This document shows, in pieces, positions 3,601 to 19,047 of a DNA stretch of 20,021 nt. Position 1 is the first letter of the stretch, and each line of letters opens with the position of its first letter. The stretch lies in contig CAMLOR010000040.1 in assembly GCA_946481615.1 (NCBI GenBank), positions 1-20,021 on the forward strand. Direction: 5' to 3'. The translations under genes were made by a program, and so were the position numbers. The stretch comes from an uncultured Aquimonas sp. GTDB lineage: Bacteria > Pseudomonadota > Gammaproteobacteria > Xanthomonadales > Xanthomonadaceae. The notes under the pieces are model-generated. The model was not told the origin of the DNA, did no database searches, and saw only the letters and a list, made by a program, of their open reading frames with translations.

Positions 3601-4394
3601 TCGCGCGGGCGGAGAAGTCGACCGACGCCGCGATCGCCAACCAGCGGTTCGCCGCGCAGCAGATGGGCGAGGCCTACGAGCGCGTGGCCGAACTGGGCGA
3701 GGGCGCCGGCCTGGCGTTCCTGCAGGCCTCGCGCGTCGGCGTCGAGGGGCTGCACCAGTTCGCCGATGCCGCACGCCATGGCCGTGCGCAGCTGGATCTG
3801 TTGAACCAGTCGGAACTCGACCAGCTCGCGGCGAGCGCGGAAAAGGCTGCACAGAAGGTGGCGTCGATCCGCGCGGCGGCTCAGGCGGCCACCCAGCAGC
3901 TGGAGCAGCTCAACCGTTCGATGCAGGACGAGGCCGACCGGCGGGAGGGCAATGACATCGCCATCCTCGAGCGCCAGCACCAGGACAACCTGCGTCGCAT
4001 CGAGGAACTCGCGCGCGCCGCGGGCGACAGCGGACGCGCCGCCGCCGATGAGGCGCGGCGGCGCGAGGAAGAAGACTACCGCGCCGAGCTCGCGCGGCTG
4101 CAGGCCGAGACGAAAGCCAAGGAACAGGCCGCCCGCGAGCAGGCGGACACCGCCATCGCGGAGACCGAACGCGAAGCGGCCGCGCGCAACAAGACCGCGG
4201 AATCGGACGGCGGCCGCGGCGGTGGCCTCGGCACGCCCGGCCGGGCGGTCGAATTCGTGCTGCGGGTGCGCAACGAGCAAACCGGCGCGCAGCAGCAGCT
4301 GATGGAGCTGGCGCAGCTCAGCGAGTTTGGCGACCTCATCACCCAAAAGGTGGTCGAGACCCTCAGCAGCTACAACGGACTGTCGACCCGATGA
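663..4394 (+). CDS. Tail length tape measure protein
   Basis: A 1243-residue protein, by far the longest of the typical tail genes. Residues 1-235 are predicted coiled coil (long Ala/Glu/Arg-rich runs). Residues about 270-413 carry the tape-measure N-terminal domain, with the landmarks LDAATKLKAFGLDPL, LEGIILAVGQAYAKQKLQGE and LVERGVPVWELLARATG. Short hydrophobic segments near residues 236-262 and 515-530 could be the membrane-active parts that tape measure proteins use during DNA injection. The C-terminal third (about 1080-1190) is again charged coiled coil. The GTG start overlaps the upstream gene, and the stop overlaps the next ATG as ATGA. The protein fills the growing tail tube and sets its length. 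There is no peptidase or lysozyme motif that I can recognise. Confidence 0.93.
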   Translation: MADSFKEVIEVALRATTDPNLRALLTQLRDLGATGDLTANQLAEMQGTVGALVDALQQAGAAAQDAARFRELTDEVSATQSALQAATKSLGEISAELEGVEKPTRALQRSYKDANREVERLEALLATQNGTLARLDTSLRSAGVDTDRLADEQARLRSESERTVSALRAQADAVRSQAEANRALRQRLDESDDAFRRQATANRTSAEALRGYRERAAQARAETKSLGDQATATAGVMQRLRGVFTALLGFITLRGAVEGVRNLLGLGDAAESARIRLAGLYGSQEAGNRAFAELKQLARDNAQQFEAVLDAATKLKAFGLDPLDGTLQTLIDQNAKLGGSQQTLEGIILAVGQAYAKQKLQGEEILQLVERGVPVWELLARATGKNVVELQKLSEQGKLGRTEIKLLLDEIGRSAQGAAANNLGLLSSLVQGLRDRVKEFFQLVSESGALQFFKDRLSAITAEIDGLARDGRLADYARRVSEAIVSVAKAVESGTRFIVQHAGALLELGKAYAAIKFASFLVGMAESAQRMLAAAAAAKATAEAVGGLRGALAAIPSQVKIAIAAVGIEAAVSQWAKFADQVREAEEIEQRARDTTVANAEARNVLAARLQAVVALYAAYKGEVIATDKTVADSTEKELRFYLERLEGARKFYAALRVERRRANDEDGAAEATRRLGEYKAAIDKVAARLRALDEAKKTAFGVPENSLAAALLQLGVDAETAGVKVTKEGEKIVAAFKRVATEGNASSGQVRAAFSKALDSATTVAEIQALEQSLRTAFETGKLSATQYAVEAGRAAQKTAEITAASKTAQGAVLGIGDSGEAAAKRTIAALEAVRSTLISAAQTINDELNTALRQKADDSVIAELTKQAREADAELTKVNKQIADAKTQMQSAGDSGAKSFQQATDSAQETGKAAKDIGTQAAAGADETATAIGGVLGQLVAMYQKFSAISPAAAELFKTMYNGAVQTATSLGDVAKAIARAEKSTDAAIANQRFAAQQMGEAYERVAELGEGAGLAFLQASRVGVEGLHQFADAARHGRAQLDLLNQSELDQLAASAEKAAQKVASIRAAAQAATQQLEQLNRSMQDEADRREGNDIAILERQHQDNLRRIEELARAAGDSGRAAADEARRREEEDYRAELARLQAETKAKEQAAREQADTAIAETEREAAARNKTAESDGGRGGGLGTPGRAVEFVLRVRNEQTGAQQQLMELAQLSEFGDLITQKVVETLSSYNGLSTR

Positions 4395-8408: not shown

Positions 8409-9695
8409 ATGCCCGGCACGACCAACTTCCCGACGTCGCTCGACGCCTTCCCCGAGATCGGCCCGAACGCTGCGGAAAACGATCTCGGCATCGAGCACGA
8501 CGTGGTGCACGATAACGTGCACGTCGCCCTGGCCGCGGTGCAGACGAAGGTGGGGATCGACGGCAGCGCGGACACCAGCTCGCTCGACTACAAGGTCGCG
8601 GCGAATACGGCGGCGCTGGCTGCCAAGGCGCCGATCGACAGCCCGACCTTCACGGGCACGCCGGCGGCGCCGACGCCGAGTGGCTCCGACAATTCCACTC
8701 TGATCGCGACGACCGCATTCGTGCAAGGCGTCGTGGCCACGGCCGTGACCGGCTTGCTCGATCTGAAGGGGAGCCTCGACGCGAGCAGCAACCCGAACTA
8801 TCCGGCTGCCTCGAAGGGCGACGTGTACCTGATCACGGTTGCCGGCAAGGTTGGTGGTGGTTCGGGCAAGTCGGTCGACGTCGGCGATGCGGTGATCGCC
8901 AGTGCCGACAACGCCGGCGGTGCGGAAGCCAGCGTCGGCACTAGCTGGTTCGTGCTCGAGCACAACCTCGCCGGGGTCGCGCTGCTGGCGTCACCGGCCT
9001 TCACGGGAACGCCCACCGCACCGACCCCAAGTTTCGGTGACGACTCCACGAAGCTGGCAACGACGGAATTCGTGCAGGACGCGGTTGCGGGCGGCGGTGG
9101 CGGCTCGGGGATCGTGCAGTCCATCGTGGCCGGCACGGGCATCGCTGTGGACGACACCGACCCCGCCAACCCGATCGTCTCCGCAACGGGGGGCGGCGGC
9201 AGTGGCTACGCCGAGGGCACATCGTTTCCCGGCACACCTGCATCGGGCGACAAGTTCTATCGCACCGACCGCAACCTGCTCTATTTCTACGACGGTACGC
9301 GCTGGCTTACGGTGCAGCTGTACGAAGTGCCCATCGCCATGCAGCAGGACCGGTTCACCGGCGGCAGCGTCACGGGCTTCTTCGCCCTGTACCCGGTGCG
9401 CACGGACTATCAGATGTTCCTTACGACGTTCACGCTCTGCGTCTACGCCACGGCCGCGGATGGAAGCAACTACTGGACGTTCTATCTGGACTGGCAGAAC
9501 GCAGCGAACGCCGCCACCAACCTGGCCACGGTGAACAACAGTGCCGGCCCCGCGTCGACGTGGAATCGGCTCACCGCGACGATCGATGCGCCATTGGATG
9601 GCAACGCGCGCGTGCTCTATCTGCGCGCGACGAGTACCGGATCGGTCGCGAACAATTTCTTCACCGCGGTGTTCGGCTACCGACTCATCGGGTGA
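8409..9695 (+). CDS. Tail fibre protein with phage fibre repeats
   Basis: A 428-residue protein. Residues 1-70 are a shaft-start segment (HDNVHVALAAVQTKVGIDGS, then SLDYKV). Two copies of the phage tail fibre repeat follow, SPTFTGTPAAPTP at about 78-90 with TTAFVQ at 101-106, and SPAFTGTPTAPTP at about 195-207 with TTEFVQ at 218-223. They are separated by a roughly 85-residue insert. A Gly-rich hinge (228-234 and 261-266) leads to a C-terminal domain (about 268-428) containing DKFYRTDRNLLYFYDGTRWL, then a compact beta-rich, Trp/Tyr-rich end that is the likely receptor-binding part. The C-terminal tip is expected to determine host range. No intramolecular chaperone domain is visible, and no separate chaperone gene follows. 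Confidence 0.85.
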   Translation: MPGTTNFPTSLDAFPEIGPNAAENDLGIEHDVVHDNVHVALAAVQTKVGIDGSADTSSLDYKVAANTAALAAKAPIDSPTFTGTPAAPTPSGSDNSTLIATTAFVQGVVATAVTGLLDLKGSLDASSNPNYPAASKGDVYLITVAGKVGGGSGKSVDVGDAVIASADNAGGAEASVGTSWFVLEHNLAGVALLASPAFTGTPTAPTPSFGDDSTKLATTEFVQDAVAGGGGGSGIVQSIVAGTGIAVDDTDPANPIVSATGGGGSGYAEGTSFPGTPASGDKFYRTDRNLLYFYDGTRWLTVQLYEVPIAMQQDRFTGGSVTGFFALYPVRTDYQMFLTTFTLCVYATAADGSNYWTFYLDWQNAANAATNLATVNNSAGPASTWNRLTATIDAPLDGNARVLYLRATSTGSVANNFFTAVFGYRLIG

Positions 9696-9698
9696 TCG

Positions 9699-11420
9699 GT
9701 GACCCTGTATCGCAAGCCGGCGCCGTACCGTAAGCCGCAGACTTATCGCGGCAACGAAACCGCGCCCGGCGTGGTCGCGCCGAACACGAGCGCCGTGCAT
9801 CGCGCGGGCTGGACGGCGTCGTCGGCCGCCTTGGCCGAGGCCCGCCTCGTGTGGCGCCGGAGCCATGCCAACGAAGGACACGCAACGGTGCCATGGTCGG
9901 CGCCCCAGCCCGACGCCGGCGTCATTCGGTTGCCGGTGCGCGACGCCGGTGTGCACGCCGCCTCGAAACGCGTGCGCTGGTCCTGGCCGCCGCCGAAGTA
10001 CCGCAAGGCCCAGCCCTACCGCAAGGCGCGGGCCTATCGTTCGGTGGGCATTTACGAAAATCCCGCGCGCGCCTCCGAGGCGGCGCTCCCGTGGGGGCGG
10101 GTCGCGGCGTTCGAACGGACGACGGGGTTGCCCTGGGGCGAGACGGCCGAGCATCTGCAGGACGCCACGCGCGCGCCGTACGCGGTCGCGGCCACCTTTA
10201 GCGAGACGAAGGTGCTGCCGTGGGGCACGTACGTGCCACGCGGCCGCACGTTGCGCGCGTGGTGGGACAACATCCTCCCGCGCAACGCGCTGATCGCGCT
10301 GCCCTGGGGGCCGCTGGGCAAGCACCAGCACGGCGTCCACTTTCCCTGGCCGGTGGAGCCCAACCCGGGCGACCCGGGCAGCGACCCGATCACCGTCCCT
10401 ATCCTCCCGGTGTATTTCATGATCCCGACGCTGTCTGCTGTCCGGCTGCCCGAGCGCACGCCGGTGCCGCTCCTGGCCGCTACGTTGCGCACCGATGCCG
10501 CCTCGTGGGGTTGGGCCTTTTCGGGCTCGATGCCGTTCGCCGACTTCGCGCTGGTCAATCCCGCCACGCGCGAGACCCCCGTCGAGCTCGAGGTGACGAT
10601 CAACGGCTATGTCTGGACGGTCCTGGTCGAGAGCTTCACCGACAATCGCCGGTTCGGCGCGCGCACGGTGAGCCTGCAGGGCCGCTCACGCTCCGCGATC
10701 CTGGCGGCGCCGTACGCGCCCACGCGCTCGCGCCTGCAGGCTGCGGATCGCACTGTGGCGCAGCTCGGCGACGAAGAGCTGACTGGCACCGGCTGGACGC
10801 TGTTGTGGGACGCCGTCGATTGGCTGGTGCCGGGGGGCACCTGGAGCTACAGCGATCTCGCGCCGATCGATGCACTGGTGCGGCTGGCCGCCAGCATCGG
10901 CGCCCGCCTCGAAACGGATCGCGAACTGCTGCAGCTCGCGGTCAAGCCGACCTATCCGATTTCGCCTTGGTTGTGGGAAGCGGCCACCCCCTTCGCGATC
11001 CTGCCGAGCAGCATCATCACGGCCGCGGACGGTGGCTGGCAGGGCGGCACGAACGCCAACGGCGTCCACGTCTACAGCGAGAATGCCGGCTTCGGCGCCC
11101 TGGTCAAGATCGCCGGCACGGGCGGGGAGGTTGCGGTGCCGCAAATCGTCGAGCGCCTGGCTGTCTCCGCGGATCCCGCGCGCGAGCGCGGCCGCCACGC
11201 ACTGGCGGTGAACAGCAAGATCAAGACCGAGCAGGTCACCCTGCCGTTGTTCCCGTCGCCGGCGGCTCCGGGCTTGATCCCGGTGGGCGCCCTCCTCGAT
11301 GCGAGCGACGGCACCGCCACATGGCGCGGCCAGACGATGGGCGTGCAGGTCACCGCGCAACGCGCCGGCACGGCCTTCAGCGTGCGCCAGCAGCTACAGA
11401 TCGAGCGGCACTTCCGATGA
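9699..11420 (+). CDS. Hub-like tail protein with repeated Trp-rich N-terminus
   Basis: A 573-residue protein starting with GTG three bases after the fibre stop. The C-terminal part (about 235-573) resembles tail-hub-like proteins of Pseudomonas-type siphoprophages, with landmarks ASWGWAFSGSMPFADFALV, VEVTINGYVW-like, LVESFTDNRRFG, GRSRSAILAAPYAP, WTLLWDAVDWLVPGG and a closing VRQQLQIERHF. The N-terminal 220 residues are different: two clusters of YRKxxPYRK (residues 4-16 and 101-114) and a recurring hPWG/hPWx motif (VPWS 64, LPWG 130, 144, 173, 201, FPWP 215). The two halves suggest a hub domain with a repetitive, surface-exposed extension. Its role in the tail tip is inferred from order and fold-like pattern. 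The stop overlaps the next ATG (ATGA). Confidence 0.75.
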   Translation: MTLYRKPAPYRKPQTYRGNETAPGVVAPNTSAVHRAGWTASSAALAEARLVWRRSHANEGHATVPWSAPQPDAGVIRLPVRDAGVHAASKRVRWSWPPPKYRKAQPYRKARAYRSVGIYENPARASEAALPWGRVAAFERTTGLPWGETAEHLQDATRAPYAVAATFSETKVLPWGTYVPRGRTLRAWWDNILPRNALIALPWGPLGKHQHGVHFPWPVEPNPGDPGSDPITVPILPVYFMIPTLSAVRLPERTPVPLLAATLRTDAASWGWAFSGSMPFADFALVNPATRETPVELEVTINGYVWTVLVESFTDNRRFGARTVSLQGRSRSAILAAPYAPTRSRLQAADRTVAQLGDEELTGTGWTLLWDAVDWLVPGGTWSYSDLAPIDALVRLAASIGARLETDRELLQLAVKPTYPISPWLWEAATPFAILPSSIITAADGGWQGGTNANGVHVYSENAGFGALVKIAGTGGEVAVPQIVERLAVSADPARERGRHALAVNSKIKTEQVTLPLFPSPAAPGLIPVGALLDASDGTATWRGQTMGVQVTAQRAGTAFSVRQQLQIERHFR

Positions 11421-11644
11421 GAAACCCGTGGCGCGAGTTCCAGGCCCTGCTGCCGGCGTCGGCCCTCTACGTCGTCGAGGTCACGGCGCACAACGCCGAT
11501 GGCACCAGCACCGTGGCGTTCCCCACCGGCGAGAGTTTCACCGTGCGCGGCCAAGGCGTCGCCATCGGGAATTTCGCCTTCGTGCGCGATGGCGTGATCG
11601 AGGGTGAAGCGCCGGCCGTGGCGCCGATCACGCTCGAGGTGTGA
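11417..11644 (+). CDS. Small phage tail-operon protein, 75 residues
   Basis: It begins MRNPWREFQALLPASALYV and ends ITLEV. The start is chosen because its ATG overlaps the stop of the hub-like gene (ATGA), as at the tape measure junction. The same frame is open far upstream, but that part runs antiparallel in logic to the hub gene's own codons and is a shadow. The protein is beta-rich with a central TAHNADGTSTVAFPTGESF stretch, and has no membrane segment or signal peptide. Several siphoprophages have a small protein of this kind after the hub-like gene, but I cannot assign a function. The last codons contain GAGGTGT, which positions a Shine-Dalgarno for the next small ORF. Confidence 0.7.
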   Translation: MRNPWREFQALLPASALYVVEVTAHNADGTSTVAFPTGESFTVRGQGVAIGNFAFVRDGVIEGEAPAVAPITLEV

Positions 11645-11646
11645 GC

Positions 11647-11790
11647 GTGGGCTCCGGACATGCGCGTCACGAACCACCGGTCACGATCGGCGAACTTTTG
11701 GCCGCGCTGGGGCCGGCGCCGCGAACTCCCATCGGCCGCGCCCTTTATTCCGCGCTGCTGGCCGCGGCGTTGCTGGGGCGGGTGCCCTAG
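11647..11790 (+). CDS. Small ORF closing the tail operon, 47 residues
   Basis: A 47-residue ORF starting with GTG at 11647, seven bases after a GAGG motif at 11636-11639. A GTG at 11641 in the same frame overlaps the upstream stop (GTGA) and would add two residues. The protein has an N-terminal polar stretch (GSGHARHEPPVTIGELLAAL) and a C-terminal hydrophobic helix (RALYSALLAAALLG). Third-position GC is about 78 percent, in line with the neighbours. A holin-like or membrane-associated role is conceivable, but the hydrophobic run is short. I do not recognise the family. Confidence 0.5.
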   Translation: MGSGHARHEPPVTIGELLAALGPAPRTPIGRALYSALLAAALLGRVP

Positions 11791-11812
11791 TCGCCGCGTG
11801 TGCGCGGCATGC

Positions 11813-11968
11813 TCACGCTTCCGGTGGCGCGGGCAGCACAGCGCGGGCCGCGCGGTCCAGCAGGGCGAGCACCGCCACCAGCGGCAGCAGTCGGATCGCC
11901 TTCTCGTTGCCTGCGTCGGCCGCCCGCCGGAGGGCGGCGATCAGCGTTTCAGTGGCTTGATCATCCAT
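11813..11968 (-). CDS. Possible small ORF, 51 residues, hydrophobic centre
   Basis: The minus-strand frame starts at ATG (11968) and reads MDDQATETLIAALRRAADAG, then a hydrophobic run around LLPLVAVLALL, ending PAPPEA. Third-position GC is about 80 percent, which is coding-like for this genome. The acidic start followed by an amphipathic and then a hydrophobic helix is consistent with a small membrane-associated protein. No clear Shine-Dalgarno precedes the ATG. It would be the last gene of the minus-strand accessory cluster, 113 bases after the 155-residue gene, and faces the end of the tail operon. A chance ORF remains quite possible. Confidence 0.35.
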   Translation of the reverse strand: MDDQATETLIAALRRAADAGNEKAIRLLPLVAVLALLDRAARAVLPAPPEA

Positions 11969-12014
11969 GACATGAGCGTGCCTGCGCCGCGCGACTGACG
12001 CGACCAGCGACTAC

Positions 12015-12074
12015 TGTCGCACGCCTAGGATTTTCCGGAAGGTTGCGTCGGCAGGTGTCGCGCTAACGCCTAGG
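12015..12074. repeat. Direct repeat pair containing ACGCCTAGG
   Basis: TGTCGC-ACGCCTAGG at 12015-12029 recurs as TGTCGC-GCTA-ACGCCTAGG at 12056-12074, so the nine-base ACGCCTAGG cores are 45 bases apart. The second core extends to the palindrome GCCTAGGC. It lies just downstream of the minus-strand 155-residue gene and could be a protein-binding or recombination-related repeat. No known site matches it in my knowledge. Confidence 0.45.
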
Positions 12075-12081
12075 CAGGTCC

Positions 12082-12549
12082 TCAGCGACGCCGCACCCAG
12101 CGGTCGGGAATGGCGCGCAGGGCCTTGGCCAAGCCCTCCGAACTTTCAAGTGCGAGCTCGCTGGGGCGTTGACCCTCGATCACCGTTGCGAAATCCCAGT
12201 GCCCAGCCTGGTCGCCGAGGACGTATTCGCTGCAGCGTCCGAATGCGTTGTGACGCGCGGCGCGCTCCTCAAGAAGACACCACGCGAGAAACACCTCGCG
12301 CGGATCGCTGCCTTTGCCGCGCGCCACGGTGAACTCGGGCGAATGATAGTCGTGGGGCGAGCCCACGAGCCTGCCCTTGAGGACGCCAAGCAGCAGCACC
12401 AACTTACCGGTCAGCTCTGACTGCCTCTCCGGCGAGCGAGGCAAGCCGCTTGCCAGTAGGGTGCTGGCCTTGTGGCAGACGTCCGCCAGCTCGATCCGGC
12501 TCATTTCGAGATACGGGTTGCCGCTGGTCGACGGCTTGGTGAATCTCAC
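12082..12549 (-). CDS. Unknown phage accessory protein coupled to SRAP
   Basis: A 155-residue protein. The GTG start at 12549 overlaps the stop of the upstream SRAP gene (GTGA), indicating translational coupling. An ATG at 12504 (MSRIELADVCHKAS) is the alternative start, but the 15 residues before it (KPSTSGNPYLE) look conserved in style. The N-terminal half is mostly helical, with a KLVLLLGVLKGRLVG segment too short and charged to be a membrane anchor. The middle contains SPHDYHSPEF and GKGSDPREVFLAWCLLEE. It is soluble, cytoplasmic, and has no recognisable catalytic motif. I do not recognise the family. Its tight pairing with an abasic-site DNA-crosslinking protein suggests a role in DNA protection or phage-host interaction, but this is inference from context only. 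Confidence 0.75.
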   Translation of the reverse strand: MRFTKPSTSGNPYLEMSRIELADVCHKASTLLASGLPRSPERQSELTGKLVLLLGVLKGRLVGSPHDYHSPEFTVARGKGSDPREVFLAWCLLEERAARHNAFGRCSEYVLGDQAGHWDFATVIEGQRPSELALESSEGLAKALRAIPDRWVRRR

Positions 12550-13499
12550 GCGGCTTTCCGGTGTTCGTAGTAGGGGCGTTCGCGATCGTCGAGGATCGCG
12601 TGCATGCGCGCCAGGTCGCCCTGCGGATCCAGCCACGCGTCGACGTGCTCGGCCTTGATGGGGATGACACAGCGGTCGTGCCCGGCGGCCGCGACTTCCG
12701 CCGGCGGTTCGTCGGTGATCGCTGCGAACGACAAAAGCTCGTCCTCGCCTTCGCCCCAACGCGACCACAGGCACGCGACGTACATCGGCTGCGGCGGATT
12801 CGGCCGGAACTCGAGCACGACGTTCTGCTCGGCCTCGCCGGGCGCGAGCTCGCGTTGCTCGACGCGGTGACGGCTGACATTCTCGTAGAACGCGTCGAAC
12901 ACCACGATGCCGTGTGAGTAGCCGAACTGCTCGCGCCAGAATCCCTCGAGGTTGTCGCGGCGCGCGTTGTAGGTGCCCGGGTATTTCTGATCGTAGAAGG
13001 CAGGCTTGCCGGCCGGCCGACACTGGTAGCGCATCGGCTTCACCACGCGCCGGCCGCTCTCCATGACCATGACCGGCGCGTACCAGCCGGGGTAGATGCG
13101 CGAGTCGCGCGGCTCGAGCGTCGTGCGCCGCAGATCCGCGAGCCGCCCCAGCGCGCGCTCCACCTTGCTGGTGGCGATACGCTGGTCCTCGAGCGCCTTC
13201 TTGGTGGTCTTGGTCTGCAGCGTGCGCTCGGCGTCGGCCAAGCGCTTGCGCTGTTGGAAGATCTCCTGCTCGAGCTTCGTGGTCTCGGCACGGTTGCGCG
13301 CGACGATCGCCGCCCAGATGTCGCGCTCGGCGTCCGTCTGCGTATCCGCGAACGCCAGATCCATCGCCTTCGTGGTGCGGACGGGCACGTTGCGGGGTGG
13401 GTCGCCGTAAAGGTGGGCGAAGTGGTGGATCGAGATATCGCTGTTGAATGCCCGGCGGTACTTCCGCCAATCGGCCCAGGTTTGCGCGGAATAGCACAT
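12546..13499 (-). CDS. SRAP-domain protein (YedK/HMCES family) with coiled-coil insertion
   Basis: A 317-residue protein beginning MCYSAQ. SRAP proteins use Cys2, exposed after Met removal, to form a thiazolidine crosslink with abasic sites in single-stranded DNA. The start at 13499 is fixed by this Cys2 and by an AGGGAG Shine-Dalgarno eight bases upstream; a 48-residue longer reading is rejected. Other expected active-site residues are visible: Asn178 in TYNARRD, Glu206 in DAFYEN and His274 in GHDRCVIP. Between the N-terminal strand and the rest lies a charged, probably coiled-coil insertion (about residues 55-127, with QEIFQQRKRLADAERTL). This makes it about 95 residues longer than E. coli YedK. 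It lies in the accessory region of the prophage and is translationally coupled to a downstream unknown gene. It may protect phage or host DNA at abasic sites. Confidence 0.9.
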   Translation of the reverse strand: MCYSAQTWADWRKYRRAFNSDISIHHFAHLYGDPPRNVPVRTTKAMDLAFADTQTDAERDIWAAIVARNRAETTKLEQEIFQQRKRLADAERTLQTKTTKKALEDQRIATSKVERALGRLADLRRTTLEPRDSRIYPGWYAPVMVMESGRRVVKPMRYQCRPAGKPAFYDQKYPGTYNARRDNLEGFWREQFGYSHGIVVFDAFYENVSRHRVEQRELAPGEAEQNVVLEFRPNPPQPMYVACLWSRWGEGEDELLSFAAITDEPPAEVAAAGHDRCVIPIKAEHVDAWLDPQGDLARMHAILDDRERPYYEHRKAA

Positions 13500-13597
13500 G
13501 GTTGGTCTCCCTGACTCCATGATCGTATCGCCATCTGCTCGCGCGAATGGACGAGTGCCAGCCTCGCCCGCCGGGCGTGACAGGCCAAGCTCATCCG

Positions 13598-13744
13598 CTA
13601 GCGCGCGCGGGCCGATTCGCCGTACAGCTGAGCCATTCGGCACGTCAGTTGGAGCTGCCCAGGGTGGGCGGGAAGGATTCGCAGTTCGTCGCGAACTGTG
13701 AATGTCGTCTCACGCCAGAATAGATTATCCACAGCCCAGTTCAC
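13598..13744 (-). CDS. Doubtful small ORF in the control region
   Basis: A minus-strand frame is open from 13906 to 13598. The likeliest internal start is GTG at 13744, giving 48 residues that begin VNWAVDNLFWRETTFTVRDE and end YGESARAR. The first part of the longer frame is encoded by a terminator-like hairpin, which argues against the GTG at 13906. Third-position GC is about 67 percent, lower than in the neighbouring genes. The composition (LPAHPGQLQLTCRMAQLYGE) looks more protein-like than random, so a small leader gene for the SRAP operon cannot be excluded. No family is recognised. Confidence 0.25.
   Translation of the reverse strand: MNWAVDNLFWRETTFTVRDELRILPAHPGQLQLTCRMAQLYGESARAR
13682..13698. 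promoter_or_regulatory. Operator-like palindrome upstream of SRAP
   Basis: CAGTTCG-TCG-CGAACTG is a perfect inverted repeat with seven-base arms and a three-base centre. It lies about 180 bases upstream of the SRAP start. The symmetry and size fit a dimeric repressor site. It does not match the LexA box described for Xanthomonadales (TTAG-N6-TACTA). Confidence 0.4.
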
Positions 13745-13756
13745 ACCTGTGGACAA
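13725..13756. promoter_or_regulatory. Inverted pair of DnaA-box-like sites
   Basis: TTATCCACA at 13725-13733 matches the strongest E. coli DnaA box exactly. TGTGGACAA at 13748-13756 is the reverse complement of TTGTCCACA, which fits the looser consensus. The pair forms an inverted repeat with ten-base arms (nine of ten paired) and a 12-base spacer, placing the two half-sites about two helical turns apart. It may bind host DnaA or a phage regulator. Confidence 0.5.
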
Positions 13757-13888
13757 ATTCTGTAGCCAAATCAACCGGGTGGTTTTCCTGAATTGCTGCG
13801 GAAAGACGGTTGACTGTCTGTCAGCCGGGGCGTAGTTTGTGCCCGCCAGCTCGCCGAGCTGGTGTGTTTTCCGCTCTATGGGGTCCCT

Positions 13889-13928
13889 GAAAAGGAAAAG
13901 CCCCACCTGACGGCAATCAGGCAGGGCT
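13889..13928 (-). terminator. Minus-strand intrinsic terminator-like hairpin
   Basis: Read on the minus strand, AGCCC and CCTGA pair with TCAGG and GGGCT around a six-base loop with a two-base internal mismatch, followed by TTTTCCTTTT. This is a reasonable Rho-independent terminator for transcription entering from the rha side, insulating the SRAP operon. The interrupted T-tract makes it moderate in strength. Confidence 0.5.
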
Positions 13929-13996
13929 GGGAGTCACTTCCCCCTCGATCTCCACGCTGGCGCGTGGGCTGAGCGGGCTGGGGGCCCGTTCGGCCC

Positions 13997-14013
13997 GCCT
14001 ATCATCGATAGGC
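13997..14013. promoter_or_regulatory. Inverted repeat upstream of rha
   Basis: GCCTATC-ATC-GATAGGC is a perfect inverted repeat with seven-base arms, 71 bases before the rha start. It has the size and symmetry of a repressor operator. No -35/-10 pair can be placed on it with confidence. Confidence 0.45.
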
Positions 14014-14021
14014 AGGCCTTT

Positions 14022-14043
14022 GCCGTCAAGCGTTTTTGACGGC
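14022..14043. promoter_or_regulatory. Second inverted repeat upstream of rha
   Basis: GCCGTCAA (14022-14029) and TTGACGGC (14036-14043) form perfect eight-base arms around GCGTTT. The right arm contains TTGAC, a possible -35 core for rha, although no good -10 follows at the right distance. It could act as an operator or as a hairpin in the rha leader. Confidence 0.4.
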
Positions 14044-14062
14044 CTCGCGCTGGCACGGGGAT

Positions 14063-14076
14063 CGCCTCTAGAGGCG
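14063..14076 (+). promoter_or_regulatory. Palindrome covering the rha ribosome binding site
   Basis: CGCCTCTAGAGGCG is a perfect 14-base palindrome. Its right half supplies GAGG (14071-14074), the Shine-Dalgarno of rha nine bases before the ATG. In RNA the left half can pair with that GAGG (five pairs around a CTAG loop), so the element may hide the ribosome binding site as well as being a DNA operator. Confidence 0.45.
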
Positions 14077-14083
14077 TTGCTCC

Positions 14084-14764
14084 ATGACCATCGAAACTGA
14101 TTCACCCGCAGAACCGCTTCCGTCCGCCGCCGCCGTCACGCTCGTCGACGACGGCGGGGAAGTTCGTATCGACTCCCGGCACCTGGCCGAGTTGCTCGAG
14201 ATCCAGCACGACAACGTGATCGAGATCCTGCGCGAATATGGCGAGGATTTCCTGCAGTTCGGGGTTCTTCCGTTTCAAACGGAGAAACCTATTGCCGGGT
14301 CTCGAGGCGGGCGCCCGCGCCGATATGTGATGCTGTCGGAACATCAGTGCTACCTGCTGTTGACGTACACGCGCAACACTCCGCGCACTCGGCAGCTCAA
14401 GGTCCGCTTGATCAAGGCCTTCGAGACCGCGCGGCTGGGAAACCACCTTCGCTTGGCGGAATACCTCCCGAGCTATCACTCGCTGCATGACCGCTTCAGC
14501 GTTCTGGCGGCCCAGTCCTCGAATCAGGACAAGGTCCACATGAACGTCAACAAGCTCGTGAACAAGACCGTCGGCATCGGGCCGGGGCAACGGGCGACGT
14601 TGCCGATGGGTACGCGGTCTGCCGTGGTGGTTGCCCAGGAAGTGGCGCGTCAGGCCACGGAAGGATGCGTCGACCACCACGACGGCTACCAGCGAGCAAA
14701 AGCACGGCTTGAAGCGCTTCGTCTGGCGATGTCGCCTGGATCGCTGCCGACGAAGGCAGCGTGA
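14084..14764 (+). CDS. rha: Rha family phage regulatory protein
   Basis: A 226-residue protein. Residues about 26-118 match the Rha domain (pRha), with RIDSRHLAELLEIQHDNVIE, a following GRPRRYVMLSEHQCYLLLTY stretch and the TRQLKVRLIKAFETAR helix typical of the family. Residues about 125-212 form a C-terminal region (HMNVNKLVNKTVGIGPGQRA, then AQEVARQA) that resembles antirepressor C-terminal domains. Rha proteins are phage-encoded transcriptional regulators; in phi80 and P22 relatives they affect lytic growth depending on host IHF. The start at 14084 has a GAGG nine bases upstream. The gene is preceded by three inverted repeats and followed eight bases later by an intrinsic terminator. It converges with the integrase gene. 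Confidence 0.88.
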   Translation: MTIETDSPAEPLPSAAAVTLVDDGGEVRIDSRHLAELLEIQHDNVIEILREYGEDFLQFGVLPFQTEKPIAGSRGGRPRRYVMLSEHQCYLLLTYTRNTPRTRQLKVRLIKAFETARLGNHLRLAEYLPSYHSLHDRFSVLAAQSSNQDKVHMNVNKLVNKTVGIGPGQRATLPMGTRSAVVVAQEVARQATEGCVDHHDGYQRAKARLEALRLAMSPGSLPTKAA

Positions 14765-14767
14765 TCG

Positions 14768-15976
14768 TCAGGGCCCCGCTTCGGCGGGGCCTTTTTTCGT
14801 CGACCCTTTTTCAGGCGCAGGGGCCTTGCAGTAGTCGGCCCATGCCTGCATCAGTTCGCGCCGCTTGGCCAGCAGCTTGCCGCGCCGGTAGGCCGCCTCG
14901 GCGTCGTCGCGGATCGCGTGCCCGAGCGCCATCTCGGCCACCTCGTTCGGGAAGTGCGTCGTCTCCGCCGCCCAGTCCCGGAACGACGACCGAAAGCCAT
15001 GCACGGTCACGTGCCCGAAGCCCATCTTCTCGAGCAGCGCCAGCAGCGCGCCATCGGTCATCGCGCCCTTATGGCTGGCGAAGATCTCCGCGTGCTTGGT
15101 GCGCTTCACGCCGGCGAGGATCTCGAGCGCGCGATCGCTGAGTGGCACCACGTGCTCGCGGCCGCCCTTCGTGTGTTCGGCGGGCACCACCCAGCGATCG
15201 TCGCGGATCTCCGACCAGGCGGCCAGGCGCACCTCGGCCGTGCGCGCCGCGGTGAGGATGAGGAACTCGAGCGCGCGGGCCGACACGCTCGAGCGCTCGC
15301 GTAGCGTGGTCATGAATGCCGGCACGGCGGCATAGGGCAGGGCGGCGAAGTGGGTTTCCTTGCGCACCGCGCGCACCGGCGGCAGCAGCTTGTCGAGATG
15401 GCCCCGCCAGCGCGCCGGGTTCTCGCCGGTGCGATACCCCTTCACGGTGGCCCAGTCCAGGATGCGGCCGATGCGCTCGCGGATCCGGGTGGCCGTCTCG
15501 TTCTTCGTGGCCCAGATCGGCTGCAGCACGGCGAGCACGTCGTCGGTGGCCACCTGGGCGACGGGCAGCGCCCGCAGCGCGGCCGCGTGGTTGGTGAGCG
15601 ACGTCGACCACTGTGCGGCGTGCTTGGCGTTCTTCCAGCCGGCGCGGTGGTCGGCGATGTAGGTGTCGGCGCAGGCGCCGAAGGTGAGGCCGGTCTGCGC
15701 GGCCTGGGCGCGCTTGCGCGCGTCGATCGGGTCGACGCCGGCGACGAGCTGGCGGCGCGCCTGTAGCGCGGCCTGGCGCGCGTCGGCCAGGCTCACGACC
15801 GCGAGCGGCCCGAGGCCCATCTCGCGCGCGCGGCCCTGCCGCGTGTAGCGAAAGATCCACGACTTGGTGCCGCCGGCGGCGACCTGCAGGTAGAGGCCGT
15901 CGCCGTCGGGGTAGTAGCCGGGCGCCGACCGCGCCGCGATCGCGCGCGCGGTGAGCCGATTGACCAGCCGCGGCAT
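14768..15976 (-). CDS. int: Tyrosine-type integrase, P4 family
   Basis: A 402-residue protein. The N-terminal arm-binding domain (DUF4102 type) is at about residues 1-90 (DGDGLYLQVAAGGTKSWIFR, GLGPLAVVSLADAR). A core-binding SAM-like domain follows at 95-200, and the catalytic domain at 205-380. Catalytic residues can be read: Arg245 in LTAARTAEVR, Lys270 in HTKGG, His326 and Arg329 in HGFRS, His353 in LGHA and Tyr363 in AAYRRG. All are intact, so it should be active in site-specific integration and excision. The length is normal for the family. An internal GTAGGA precedes the ATG at 15976. The gene sits at the right end of the prophage beside the proposed attachment site. Its last residues (KKGPAEAGP) are encoded by the rha terminator. 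Confidence 0.95.
   Translation of the reverse strand: MPRLVNRLTARAIAARSAPGYYPDGDGLYLQVAAGGTKSWIFRYTRQGRAREMGLGPLAVVSLADARQAALQARRQLVAGVDPIDARKRAQAAQTGLTFGACADTYIADHRAGWKNAKHAAQWSTSLTNHAAALRALPVAQVATDDVLAVLQPIWATKNETATRIRERIGRILDWATVKGYRTGENPARWRGHLDKLLPPVRAVRKETHFAALPYAAVPAFMTTLRERSSVSARALEFLILTAARTAEVRLAAWSEIRDDRWVVPAEHTKGGREHVVPLSDRALEILAGVKRTKHAEIFASHKGAMTDGALLALLEKMGFGHVTVHGFRSSFRDWAAETTHFPNEVAEMALGHAIRDDAEAAYRRGKLLAKRRELMQAWADYCKAPAPEKGSTKKGPAEAGP
14772..14797 (+). terminator. Intrinsic terminator of rha, inside the integrase 3' end
   Basis: GGCCCCGC-TTCG-GCGGGGCC forms a perfect eight-base stem with a stable tetraloop and is followed directly by TTTTTT. It begins eight bases after the rha stop. 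The whole element lies inside the last codons of the convergent integrase gene. Confidence 0.9.
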
Positions 15977-15982
15977 GCCGTC

Positions 15983-16006
15983 CTACCCCCGTCTCTACCC
16001 CCGTTT
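15983..16006. repeat. Tandem 12-base repeat before the integrase gene
   Basis: CTACCCCCGTCT is followed immediately by CTACCCCCGTTT, two units with 11 of 12 bases identical and one helical turn apart. They lie 7-30 bases upstream of the integrase ATG and overlap its probable leader. Their place next to int and the attachment site makes arm-type integrase binding sites, or autoregulation of int, a reasonable guess. Confidence 0.45.
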
Positions 16007-16122
16007 GGGCAGGCGGATCATAGCGGACGGCAGCGGAGCGGGGTGGATGGCCTCTTGAGGCGGGACGCGGGTTTGCGCCACAATGGCGGAACGGAGCGGC
16101 ACGAGGCGGACCCGTCTGGGAG

Positions 16123-16138
16123 CCCTCTCACTCCGCCA
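16123..16138 (+). other. Candidate right attachment site (tRNA 3' end remnant)
   Basis: CCCTCTCACTCCGCCA reads as the 3' half of a T-stem, a seven-base acceptor strand (TCACTCC), discriminator G and CCA, as in class II tRNA-Ser genes. No tRNA body precedes it, so it looks like the leftover 3' fragment that P4-type integration produces at the far end of a prophage. It lies between int and the first host promoter. The matching intact tRNA would be at the left prophage end, outside the window. Confidence 0.55.
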
Positions 16139-16148
16139 CCGAAGAAAA

Positions 16149-16186
16149 GTCAATATATTGACGAGCTTCCGTGGCGTCCGCATAAT
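16149..16186 (+). promoter_or_regulatory. Sigma70-type promoter of tRNA-Arg
   Basis: TTGACG (16158-16163), a 17-base spacer and CATAAT (16181-16186) form a near-consensus promoter ending 11 bases before the tRNA. A perfect 14-base AT-rich palindrome, GTCAATATATTGAC (16149-16162), overlaps the -35 element. Confidence 0.85.
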
Positions 16187-16197
16187 TCCGCTTCTTC

Positions 16198-16274
16198 GCG
16201 CCCGTAGCTCAGTTGGATAGAGCACCAGGCTACGAACTTGGGGGTCGGGAGTTCGAATCTCTCCGGGCGCGCCA
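16198..16274 (+). tRNA. tRNA-Arg(ACG)
   Basis: The 77-base cloverleaf is complete. The seven-base acceptor pairs GCGCCCG with CGGGCGC. The D-stem is GCTC/GAGC, and the anticodon stem CCAGG/CTTGG has one G-U pair. The loop CTACGAA carries anticodon ACG, the variable loop has five bases, the T-stem is GGGAG/CTCTC around TTCGAAT, and CCA is encoded. The anticodon A34 would be modified to inosine to read CGU, CGC and CGA. The gene is transcribed alone from its own promoter and followed by a strong terminator. It is intact and lies to the right of the prophage, so it is not itself split by the integration. Confidence 0.97.
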
Positions 16275-16288
16275 TACGAAGAATACGC

Positions 16289-16328
16289 AACGGGCCGGTC
16301 GTTCACGCGACCGGCCCGTTTCGTTTCG
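16289..16328 (+). terminator. Intrinsic terminator of tRNA-Arg
   Basis: ACGGGCCGGTCG (16290-16301) and CGACCGGCCCGT (16308-16319) form a perfect 12-base stem around TTCACG, followed by TTCGTTTCG. The strong GC stem 15 bases after the tRNA ends the transcript. Confidence 0.85.
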
Positions 16329-16422: not shown

Positions 16423-19047
16423 ATGCTCCGGAAGATATTGCTCGCGACCGCGCTTTCGCCTGCGCTCGGTGCGGCCGCCGCCAACATCGACGGCACGATC
16501 GACACGGGCTACGGCGGCACGGCGGGCCGCTCCTCGATCGGTTTCCTCGAATCCGATCGGCCGGCGCTGCGCGGCATCGCGCGCTCGCCGTTCGCGCGCT
16601 ACTGGCTCGTCGCCGACGATCCGGTCGACGTCGGCGCGATCTATGTGTCGCGGCTGATGCTCGACGGCACGCCGGATGTCGCCTTCGGCGATGCGAACGG
16701 GCGGCGCCGCACGCCGGTGCCGGGCGGTCTCGGGCCGGGCCTGCCGGCGATCTCGATCGAAGGCAATCTGGTGCAGGCCGACGGCAAGCCGCTCGCCTTC
16801 GGCGGACTGACGCCGCGCGATGGCGTGGCCGGCGCGTTCCCCGGCCTGCTATGCCGGCTCGCCGCGGCCGGCAATTTCGACGTGTCGTTCGGCACCGGCG
16901 GCTGCCGTCCGCTGCGCACCTTTTTGTCGAACGACGAGATCTGCCGCGTCACCGACGCGGAGGAAGCGAACGACGGCAGCTTCGTGGCGATCGGCAACTG
17001 CGCCGGCGCGACGTTGCCGACGCGCCCCTTCATTGCTCGCGTCACCGCCGCCGGCATCCTCGACCAGGAATTCGGCGCCGGCGTCGGCCTCGTCACGCCG
17101 CTGTTGCCGGGCGTCGAGGCGGCCGGACAGTACTTCGATGCGGTCTCGTTGCGACCCGACGGCACCATCGTCGTGCTCGCGCAGGTCGATTCGGGCACGC
17201 AGCGCGATATCGCCGTGGCGCAGTTCGACGGCGGCGGCTCGATCGATCCGGGCTTCGGTGACGATGGCGTCATCGGTTTCGGCGGCACGAACGACGACCG
17301 CCCGGTCGATATCGATCTGCGCGCCGACGGCGGCATCGTCGTGCTGGGCCAGGCCGTCGTCGCCGATCCGTATCGTGCGACCGCGATGCTGATGCAGCTC
17401 ACCGCAAGCGGCGAGCCCGACACGATCCGCTTCGACGATCTCGACGGCAGGCTCGGCGCGCTCTCGGTCTTGCGCGACGTCGAGTACGACGTGGACGGCA
17501 AGATCGTCCTGGGCGGATCGATCGAGGCGCCGGCTGCGCAGCCGCCGACGGCCGGCACGGATTTCTGGGTCGCGTTCGCAGGCTCGGTGCCGCCGCAGTA
17601 TCCGCACCGCGTCATGATCTCGGCCGAAACGCGCACGTCGGGCGTGCTCGAAGCTCCCGAAGCGGACCTCGTGCTGCCGTTCGAAGTGGTGCCGGGGCGC
17701 ATCACGCAGCTCACGCTGCCGGTGAACCTCGGGCTGGAACTCGACGAAACGGGCGAATCGTTCGCGAAGAAAGGTGTCCACCTCCGCGCACGCGATCCGA
17801 TCGCCGTGCAGATCCAAACCGGCCGCTCGTTCACGCTCGACACCACCGCCGCATTGCCGACCGAAACGCTGGGCACCACGTACCGCGTGTTGAACTGGGA
17901 TTTCGGGTTGGGGCAGGGCTCCTTCTTCGCGATCGTCGCCACCGAGGACGACACCAGCGTGACGATCACGCCCAGCGTCACGCGTCACGGCCGCGTTGCC
18001 GGCGTGCCCTACGTCATCGCGCTCGACCGCGGCTCGACGTATCGCTTCAACGTCGCGGACGGCCTGGAAAACCTGGACACCTCCGGCACGCTGATCGAGT
18101 CGGACAAGCCCATCGCCGTCCACTCCGGCCATACCTGCGGCGCGGTGCCGACGGCGTCCACCGATTACTGCGATCTGCTGCTCGAACAGGAAACCCCGGT
18201 CGAGCGCTGGGGCACGGAATTCCTCTACGCGCGCTACGTCGGGCGCCAGAACGGCGACATCGTGCGCATGCTCGCGCACGAGGACGGCACCGTGGTGTCG
18301 ATCAACGGCGTGCCGTCGATCGAGCTCGCCGCCGGCGAGATCTTCGAGGCGACCTACACCGAGGCGCGCCGCATCACCTCGAACAAGCCGATCGACGTGC
18401 ATCAATATGCGGTTGGCTGCGATCTGGCCAATGCCGACGAACAGGATTGCCCGGGCGATCCCAACATGCTCGAGCTCGTGCCGACCTCGCGCTGGCAGCA
18501 TCGCTGGGTCGTGAACGCGCCGGTCGATCTGCAGTTCGAGCCCACGCATTACGTCCAGGTGATCGCGCCGCAGTCGGCGACGGCTTCGGTGCGCATCGAC
18601 GGCGCGGTAGTGCCGGCGAACGCGTGGGCGCCGGTCGGCAACGCCGGCCATGCGCGCGCGGCCGTCACCGTGCTTTCCGGCCAGCACCTCGTGACCGCAG
18701 CTGCGCCGATCGTGGCGTACGGCCACAGCGTCGGCGAAGGCGAGAGCTACGCGCACGCCGGATCGAGCGCGCCGGGCGGCGCCGGGCTCGACACCGACGA
18801 CGTGCTGATGCGGCTGTTGCAGGGCAGTTCGCGCGATCCGCGCTTCGGCGTCGACGGCATCGCCGTTGTCGACCACGCGCCGGGTTTCGAAACGGCGACC
18901 CGCAGCGCCGATCGCATGGCCAATTTCGTGGTCGGTTCCGATGCGATCACGGTGGGCACCGCGTCGCTCAACCGCAGCAGCGGGCAATCGCTCTTGGTAA
19001 GCTACCGCGTGATCGCCGCCGAACTTTTCCACGACTCGTTCGAATGA
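16423..19047 (+). CDS. Secreted protein: IgGFc-binding-like domain inserted in delta-60 repeats
   Basis: An 874-residue protein with a Sec signal peptide (MLRKILLATALSPALGAAAA, cleavage expected near residue 20) and a GAGG ribosome binding site eight bases before the ATG. Residues about 22-370 are delta-60 (beta-propeller) repeats, with landmarks such as GSIDPGFGDDGVIGFGG, LRPDGTIVVLAQ and LRADGGIVVLGQ. Residues about 375-785 match the IgGFc-binding N-terminal domain (GTDFWVAF, SDKPIAVHSGHTCGAVP, YCDLLLEQETPVERWGTEF, ITSNKPIDVHQYAVGC). After it the repeat pattern resumes (about 792-865, SSRDPRFGVDGIAVVDHAP, then AITVGTAS). The protein ends ELFHDSFE, a tail like the DGFE endings I associate with secreted proteins of Rhodanobacteraceae. 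It is probably exported and surface-associated or adhesive. The ligand is unknown. Confidence 0.85.
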   Translation: MLRKILLATALSPALGAAAANIDGTIDTGYGGTAGRSSIGFLESDRPALRGIARSPFARYWLVADDPVDVGAIYVSRLMLDGTPDVAFGDANGRRRTPVPGGLGPGLPAISIEGNLVQADGKPLAFGGLTPRDGVAGAFPGLLCRLAAAGNFDVSFGTGGCRPLRTFLSNDEICRVTDAEEANDGSFVAIGNCAGATLPTRPFIARVTAAGILDQEFGAGVGLVTPLLPGVEAAGQYFDAVSLRPDGTIVVLAQVDSGTQRDIAVAQFDGGGSIDPGFGDDGVIGFGGTNDDRPVDIDLRADGGIVVLGQAVVADPYRATAMLMQLTASGEPDTIRFDDLDGRLGALSVLRDVEYDVDGKIVLGGSIEAPAAQPPTAGTDFWVAFAGSVPPQYPHRVMISAETRTSGVLEAPEADLVLPFEVVPGRITQLTLPVNLGLELDETGESFAKKGVHLRARDPIAVQIQTGRSFTLDTTAALPTETLGTTYRVLNWDFGLGQGSFFAIVATEDDTSVTITPSVTRHGRVAGVPYVIALDRGSTYRFNVADGLENLDTSGTLIESDKPIAVHSGHTCGAVPTASTDYCDLLLEQETPVERWGTEFLYARYVGRQNGDIVRMLAHEDGTVVSINGVPSIELAAGEIFEATYTEARRITSNKPIDVHQYAVGCDLANADEQDCPGDPNMLELVPTSRWQHRWVVNAPVDLQFEPTHYVQVIAPQSATASVRIDGAVVPANAWAPVGNAGHARAAVTVLSGQHLVTAAAPIVAYGHSVGEGESYAHAGSSAPGGAGLDTDDVLMRLLQGSSRDPRFGVDGIAVVDHAPGFETATRSADRMANFVVGSDAITVGTASLNRSSGQSLLVSYRVIAAELFHDSFE

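Follow-up and report, generated by a model that had tools for sequence, protein, structure and literature searches.

A hairpin-bearing SRAP gene and an overlapping orphan gene in a prophage region of an uncultured Aquimonas sp.

A prophage region in the genome of an uncultured Aquimonas sp. carries a gene of the SRAP family whose stop codon overlaps the start of a small gene without a recognised family. This arrangement raises the question of whether the two genes form a fixed module, possibly for abasic-site protection or anti-phage defence, or whether the SRAP is phage cargo of a known kind that happens to have this neighbour. The window, i.e. the whole stretch of DNA analysed here, comprises 20,021 nucleotides (contig CAMLOR010000040.1 of assembly GCA_946481615.1). 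A first-pass annotation had proposed the first of these answers.

A SRAP family member and its prophage setting

The SRAP gene (12546..13499, minus strand) starts with an ATG at 13499, terminates with a TGA ending at 12546 and encodes 317 amino acids. It is preceded by an AGGGAG at a spacing of 7 nt. The list of open reading frames also contains a GTG start that would yield a protein of 365 amino acids, but the ATG was preferred because it places a cysteine at position 2, as in the relatives. The SRAP domain (PF02586) was matched with 60.8 bits against a Pfam cut-off of 27.1, and all 45 relatives chosen for alignment matched the same family at an E-value of 0.001. Residues C2, N178, E206 and H274 are retained, as in the YedK-HMCES family, and a profile comparison placed N178, E206 and H274 on the INAK, FYEW and HDRMP motifs of a canonical SRAP that itself matches PDB chains of YedK and HMCES. 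Coordinates, strand, length and all four residues are exactly those of the first-pass annotation. The conservation of these residues extends through the relatives: Asn, Glu and His are found in all 178 SRAP proteins fetched from the database and Cys2 in 167 of them (ten gaps and one Ile account for the rest), while the complete set is present in 85 of 87 viral SRAPs (two are cut) and in 20 of 20 plasmid SRAPs. An AlphaFold2 model calculated from the 45-sequence alignment reached a mean pLDDT of 92.9.

Family membership, the retained catalytic residues and this confident model support the earlier proposal of abasic-site protection, and the chemistry of the protein is most likely abasic-site capping like that of YedK and HMCES. 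The accessible text of PMC9436759 describes a cross-linking mechanism for YedK that uses Cys2, Glu105 and His160. By analogy, loss of Met1 would expose Cys2 of the window SRAP as the N-terminal residue, which would become covalently joined, through a thiazolidine, to an abasic site in single-stranded DNA, Glu206 and His274 would act as acid-base catalysts, and the resulting cap would shield damaged DNA during a presumed SOS response or prophage induction. The window protein shares with E. coli YedK and human HMCES the Cys2 that follows Met1, the Asn, Glu and His residues at matching motifs and the SRAP core. In contrast to them, it is approximately 90 residues longer than most PDB chains (226-229 residues in most entries), has a helical hairpin inserted after the Cys2 strand and before the core, and is too distant for a sequence match to the PDB. 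No PDB chain matched the hairpin branch at an E-value of 0.001, and none of the seven weak matches obtained up to an E-value of 10 is a SRAP.

The protein database yielded at least 7,969 SRAP matches with E-values of up to 0.001, from 7,999 candidates that were scored. The best 120 listed are at least 66% identical to the query and span no less than 98% of it, and the named relatives among the matches listed belong to Luteimonas, Rudaea, Tahibacter and Pseudolysobacter, all of which we take to be Lysobacterales. Judged by these comparisons, the window SRAP belongs to a widespread branch of hairpin-bearing SRAPs and is carried by a prophage.

The prophage context of the gene comprises the following neighbours. 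A tail protein gene (9699..11420, plus strand; PHROGs) is convergent with the SRAP gene on one side. On the other side lie a divergent gene for a phage regulator of the Rha family (14084..14764, plus strand) and a tyrosine integrase gene (14768..15976, minus strand), both identified with Pfam and PHROGs, and a tRNA-Arg gene (ACG; 16198..16274, plus strand) beside int, which was the only Rfam match. The earlier placement of the pair between the tail gene and int is correct, and the order of tail gene, SRAP, rha, int and tRNA-Arg fits a recurrent cargo position. A promoter-like site, TCCACA-18-GATAAT (13724..13753, minus strand), matches the consensus at 9 of 12 positions approximately 225 nt before the SRAP start, and its assignment as a candidate promoter relies on this consensus match only.

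Several smaller elements were also recorded. A likely 75-codon gene (11417-11644, plus strand; start MRNPWREF) begins within an ATGA that contains the stop codon of the tail protein. The approximately 580 bp between SRAP and rha (13500-14080) contain no clear gene and include a terminator-like hairpin on the minus strand (13899-13928). A reading frame with GEIRTPDPQVRSLVLYPTELRA runs antisense over the tRNA-Arg gene (15995-16306, minus strand); it is probably no gene and presumably represents a commonly mis-annotated tRNA-antisense frame. Further out, 16423-19047 probably encodes a host-side protein of 874 amino acids with delta-60 repeats, which scored just below the NCBIfam cut-off (75.5 versus 76.5 bits). 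Searches of the phage records with the DNA of 9600-14800 and, by tblastn, with the SRAP gave no match, while the integrase, used as a control, matched 274 records. None of the seven repair genes queried by tblastn (ImuA, ImuB, DnaE2, UmuD, UmuC, Ku and LigD) was found in the window; DinB was not among the queries. LexA boxes of the two types tried, which are consensus forms and may not be those of the host, were not found near the SRAP gene.

The helical hairpin

The first-pass annotation had noted a charged insertion of approximately 70 residues in the SRAP, and this insertion is real. Codons 56-124 (13128..13334, minus strand) encode 69 residues, 28 of which are Asp, Glu, Lys or Arg, and AlphaFold2 predicts them to form an antiparallel hairpin of two long helices (residues 56-96 and 100-124). 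In the 45-sequence alignment, mean conservation amounts to 0.65 and 0.67 for the two helices, while residues 11-55 reach 0.55 and the core reaches 0.77. Within the hairpin, conservation is highest near the tip (approximately residues 81-112), where 13 residues reach at least 0.91 each: R86, L87, A90, R92, L94, K97, T99, K100, A102, R107, I108, A109 and K112.

To be counted as present, the hairpin had to occupy at least 60 of its 69 positions. By this measure it was found in 279 of 285 SRAPs checked, a sample drawn from a family with at least 7,969 matches, and the remaining six are short or cut. Specifically, it is present in 174 of 178 database SRAPs (the other four are only 197-252 amino acids long), in 85 of 87 viral SRAPs (two run off the end of their locus) and in all 20 plasmid SRAPs. 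On this distribution, the hairpin is an additional element kept throughout the SRAP branch, and it probably occurs in far more bacterial SRAPs than those checked. It is also the least described part of the window SRAP. No description of a hairpin SRAP branch was found in the literature searched, which consisted mostly of papers available without subscription, and the accessible text of PMC3765255 contains neither the word "coiled-coil" nor the word "insert".

The orphan gene and its occurrence beside related SRAPs

The second gene (12082..12549, minus strand) starts with a GTG at 12549, has the last base of its stop codon at 12082 and encodes 155 amino acids. Its frame is the best of the six by codon usage (0.02 versus -0.25 to -0.75). 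The protein has two matches in the protein database, namely its own cluster and a single relative, P0004, with 77% identity on a contig of 1,351 bp. P0004 has the same length and start; residues 2-22 are identical and 35 of the other 133 differ. This combination indicates that the gene is under selection, and the frame is very likely a real gene. As claimed earlier, it belongs to no recognised family: Pfam (up to an E-value of 10), PHROGs, NCBIfam and PADLOC all gave no match. Relatives were likewise absent from the viral contigs, in both sequence and alignment searches, and from the phage records. Two PDB matches obtained up to an E-value of 10 are at chance level, and the lone match in a species genome (L009) covers 31 residues inside an unlike protein of 791 amino acids and was attributed to chance. 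The AlphaFold2 model has a pLDDT of 47, which is too low to interpret.

The GTG of the orphan gene overlaps the TGA of the SRAP gene as GTGA, an overlap that had been reported at first pass and is seen directly in the sequence, and a GGAAAG is located four bases upstream of the GTG. From this overlap we infer that the two proteins are made together, and the orphan gene would be read from the SRAP transcript by translational coupling. Taken with its narrow distribution, it is probably a lineage-specific orphan that shares a transcript with the SRAP gene, and its product could either modulate the SRAP or be cargo unrelated to it. Other four-base overlaps occur in the same phage, with ATGA at 4391-4394 (tail-region genes) and at 11417-11420, and the overlap of the pair is ordinary for this phage. 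Among 96 related loci, one other (L010) has a start that overlaps the SRAP stop by four bases, when open frames of at least 50 amino acids are considered. The overlapping frame there spans 123 amino acids from an earlier GTG, is annotated as a hypothetical gene of 99 amino acids and does not match the profile of the 155-residue protein.

The orphan protein had been proposed to be a fixed partner of the SRAP, and an adjacency count was run on 107 other loci of the hairpin branch. A profile search against their open reading frames detected the 155-residue protein in none of them; the SRAP stop is followed by 468 bp or more in 96 of the 107, and absence is not firm for the others. The search covered two sets. 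In a first set of 87 viral and 9 plasmid loci, no profile match was better than an E-value of 1.1, and a repeat with stop-to-stop frames gave no match at 0.1. In a second set of 11 further plasmid loci, the best match had an E-value of 0.69. The 87 viral loci consist of 79 out of 223 confirmed ones and 8 from another search, whereas the 20 plasmid loci were hand-picked from 30 listed of 106 matching records and a 21st (L019) was dropped. Left out of the counts were L009 (the chance match), L019 (similar to L010), L020 (a duplicate of L010), L021 (a canonical SRAP from another genome) and L044 (the contig of L001). Open reading frames called greedily beside the SRAP were not used for gene order, as such calls are noisy in GC-rich DNA. 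The abundance of the two families also contradicts a fixed partnership, with two clusters of the partner set against at least 7,969 SRAP matches. Weaker evidence comes from the contig size of P0004: among the best 120 of 7,892 SRAP matches, none lies on a contig of 1,351 bp. On these comparisons, a fixed two-gene SRAP module is not supported.

Damage tolerance, defence and the possible role of the locus

The neighbourhoods of related SRAPs were surveyed in flanks of 4-6 kb for plasmid loci and 5 kb for viral loci; all counts are raw, without a random-gene control, the viral loci are redundant and flanks end at contig edges. By annotation and tblastn, 13 of the 20 plasmid loci have ImuA, ImuB, DnaE2 or UmuDC in their flanks (L011, L012, L014, L017, L018, L102-L105, L107 and L110-L112). 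Four of them (L018, L102, L103 and L104) show imuA-imuB-dnaE2-SRAP in a row, and L011 shows imuB-dnaE2-SRAP on a stretch that ends before the expected position of imuA. SRAP relatives at 66-68% identity follow directly behind imuA-imuB-dnaE2 on plasmids, and the SRAPs of the hairpin branch linked to these genes are found on Burkholderiales plasmids. The other seven plasmid loci have no intact gene of a polymerase complex: L108 retains an ImuA remnant, and L010, L013, L015, L016, L106 and L109 have none, with a DNA ligase gene in L106. The annotated genes downstream of the SRAP vary from one plasmid locus to the next. In the viral loci, UmuC and UmuD occur together in the flanks of 15 of 87 (one UmuC was confirmed by Pfam), a J-type or related tail protein in 42 and an integrase-like reading frame in 21. 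PHROGs or Pfam was used to check members of every tail and integrase cluster; in one integrase cluster L065 and L051 fall under the Pfam cut-off and L071 above it. Grouped at 95% identity, the viral SRAPs form 30 groups, nine of them with UmuDC and nine with J-type or related tail genes.

Some individual loci deserve a separate mention. Similar Ku-LigD-UmuD-UmuC-SRAP clusters are located on two replicons of Caballeronia strain SBC2 (L017 and L105), with 97% identity between the UmuC and 98% between the UmuD proteins. On a Paraburkholderia plasmid (L102, 7083-12957), the BREX genes brxL, pglZ and pglX adjoin the imuA-imuB-dnaE2-SRAP cluster. One cluster of reading frames lies approximately 0.5-1.2 kb before the SRAP in nine viral loci (L067, L078, L080, L085, L086, L093, L098, L099 and L100), and its member in L078 matches a DarB-like antirestriction family.

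Related arrangements have been published in sources of which parts were accessible. PMC3765255 places SRAP genes beside those of UmuDC, ImuA/ImuB/DnaE2 and DinB, in SOS operons and in prophages, and proposes an autoproteolytic switch. PMC12926913 reports a link between UmuC-like polymerases and proteins related to SRAP, and it names SRAP-like proteins among the putative subunits that bind Y-polymerases. A SRAP of an Acinetobacter prophage is induced by DNA damage and forms a putative operon with a polymerase component (PMC3978071). The window copy differs from such SRAPs linked to imuA-imuB-dnaE2 or umuDC in that it resides in a prophage lacking, within the window, the seven repair genes queried. 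It resembles, as cargo of temperate phages, the SRAPs reported for Marinobacter phage vB_MalS-PS3 (PMC8424206), Sinorhizobium (PMC5537653) and Paraburkholderia (DUF159; PMC5567305), the first and last of which are listed near an integrase. Unlike the window SRAP, the Marinobacter protein (gene 3,501-2,824, 226 codons; PMC8424206) and the Paraburkholderia prophage protein (229 amino acids; PMC5567305) are of the short type. The accessible parts of PMC8424206, PMC5537653 and PMC5567305 do not mention the 155-residue partner beside their SRAPs.

The reading that we consider probable is that the locus carries an SOS-type, abasic-site-capping SRAP as prophage cargo together with a probably co-translated orphan gene; the pair appears to be phage cargo of a familiar type and not a novel defence system of two genes. 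The orphan protein might instead bind the SRAP and control or extend its action at abasic sites, with the overlap keeping the stoichiometry. The GTGA with its GGAAAG and the preserved length, start and first residues of P0004 would agree with such a pair. Nevertheless, we regard it as unlikely, given that two clusters of the partner are known, that the gene is missing from all 107 other loci, of which 96 extend far enough downstream, that the search for a SRAP on a contig of the size of P0004 was also negative among the best 120 of 7,892 matches, although this carries little weight, that the hairpin is present without the orphan protein, and that four-base overlaps are ordinary and recur with an unrelated frame in L010. 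Another alternative regards the SRAP as captured from a mutasome locus of a host or plasmid and the orphan gene as a chance neighbour without a functional tie. Branch members next to imuA-imuB-dnaE2 on Burkholderiales plasmids, the differing downstream genes of the plasmid loci and the ordinary nature of the overlap all favour it. It is a genuine possibility, though one that we hold tentatively, since the overlap and the conserved start speak for coupled translation.

An anti-phage cassette between the tail genes and int, with the SRAP as sensor or effector, appears highly improbable. It could draw on the recurrent cargo spot near tail genes and on the toxin-antitoxin, Fic/HipA, DUF262 or BREX genes in the flanks of 8 of the 20 plasmid loci (L012, L013, L015, L017, L018, L102, L109 and L112), but genes of toxin-antitoxin and defence type are common on large plasmids anyway. 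The same eight loci also speak against a picture of damage tolerance alone. Neither protein of the pair falls into a known defence family: PADLOC has none for the orphan protein, and its one match for the SRAP (LmuB, 12.5 bits, E-value 0.0095) is confined to the coiled coil. In addition, the accessible text of PMC11078745 reports that deletion of yedK left Brig1 immunity unchanged, a result that concerns the host YedK only. The defence role proposed at first pass has, accordingly, little support.

Returning to the preferred reading of a SRAP cargo with a coupled orphan gene, the function of the hairpin can be narrowed. As it occurs in relatives without the 155-residue protein, an interface specific to that protein through the insertion is unlikely, and so is, on the same comparison, a hairpin that exists for the sake of that protein. 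The tip would probably contact something common to the branch, either DNA or a translesion polymerase or mutasome protein, rather than the orphan product, and the neighbourhood counts hint that it may dock a repair polymerase. Taken much further, hairpin SRAPs could be a distinct functional branch in which an SOS polymerase complex (ImuB/DnaE2 or UmuC) docks at the conserved tip for a handover from cap to bypass polymerase on the same lesion, while the private small protein of the prophage, translated in step, tunes or blocks this docking to the benefit of the phage; we regard this extended scheme as quite unlikely.

The analysis removes a false lead, namely a conserved defence module of SRAP and partner, and the orphan gene merits a targeted look only. 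The most promising lead is the hairpin tip, for which the neighbourhood counts suggest a possible role as a docking site for a repair polymerase. As hairpin SRAPs often lie near mutagenic polymerase genes, the published guess that SRAP proteins may steer translesion synthesis becomes directly testable.
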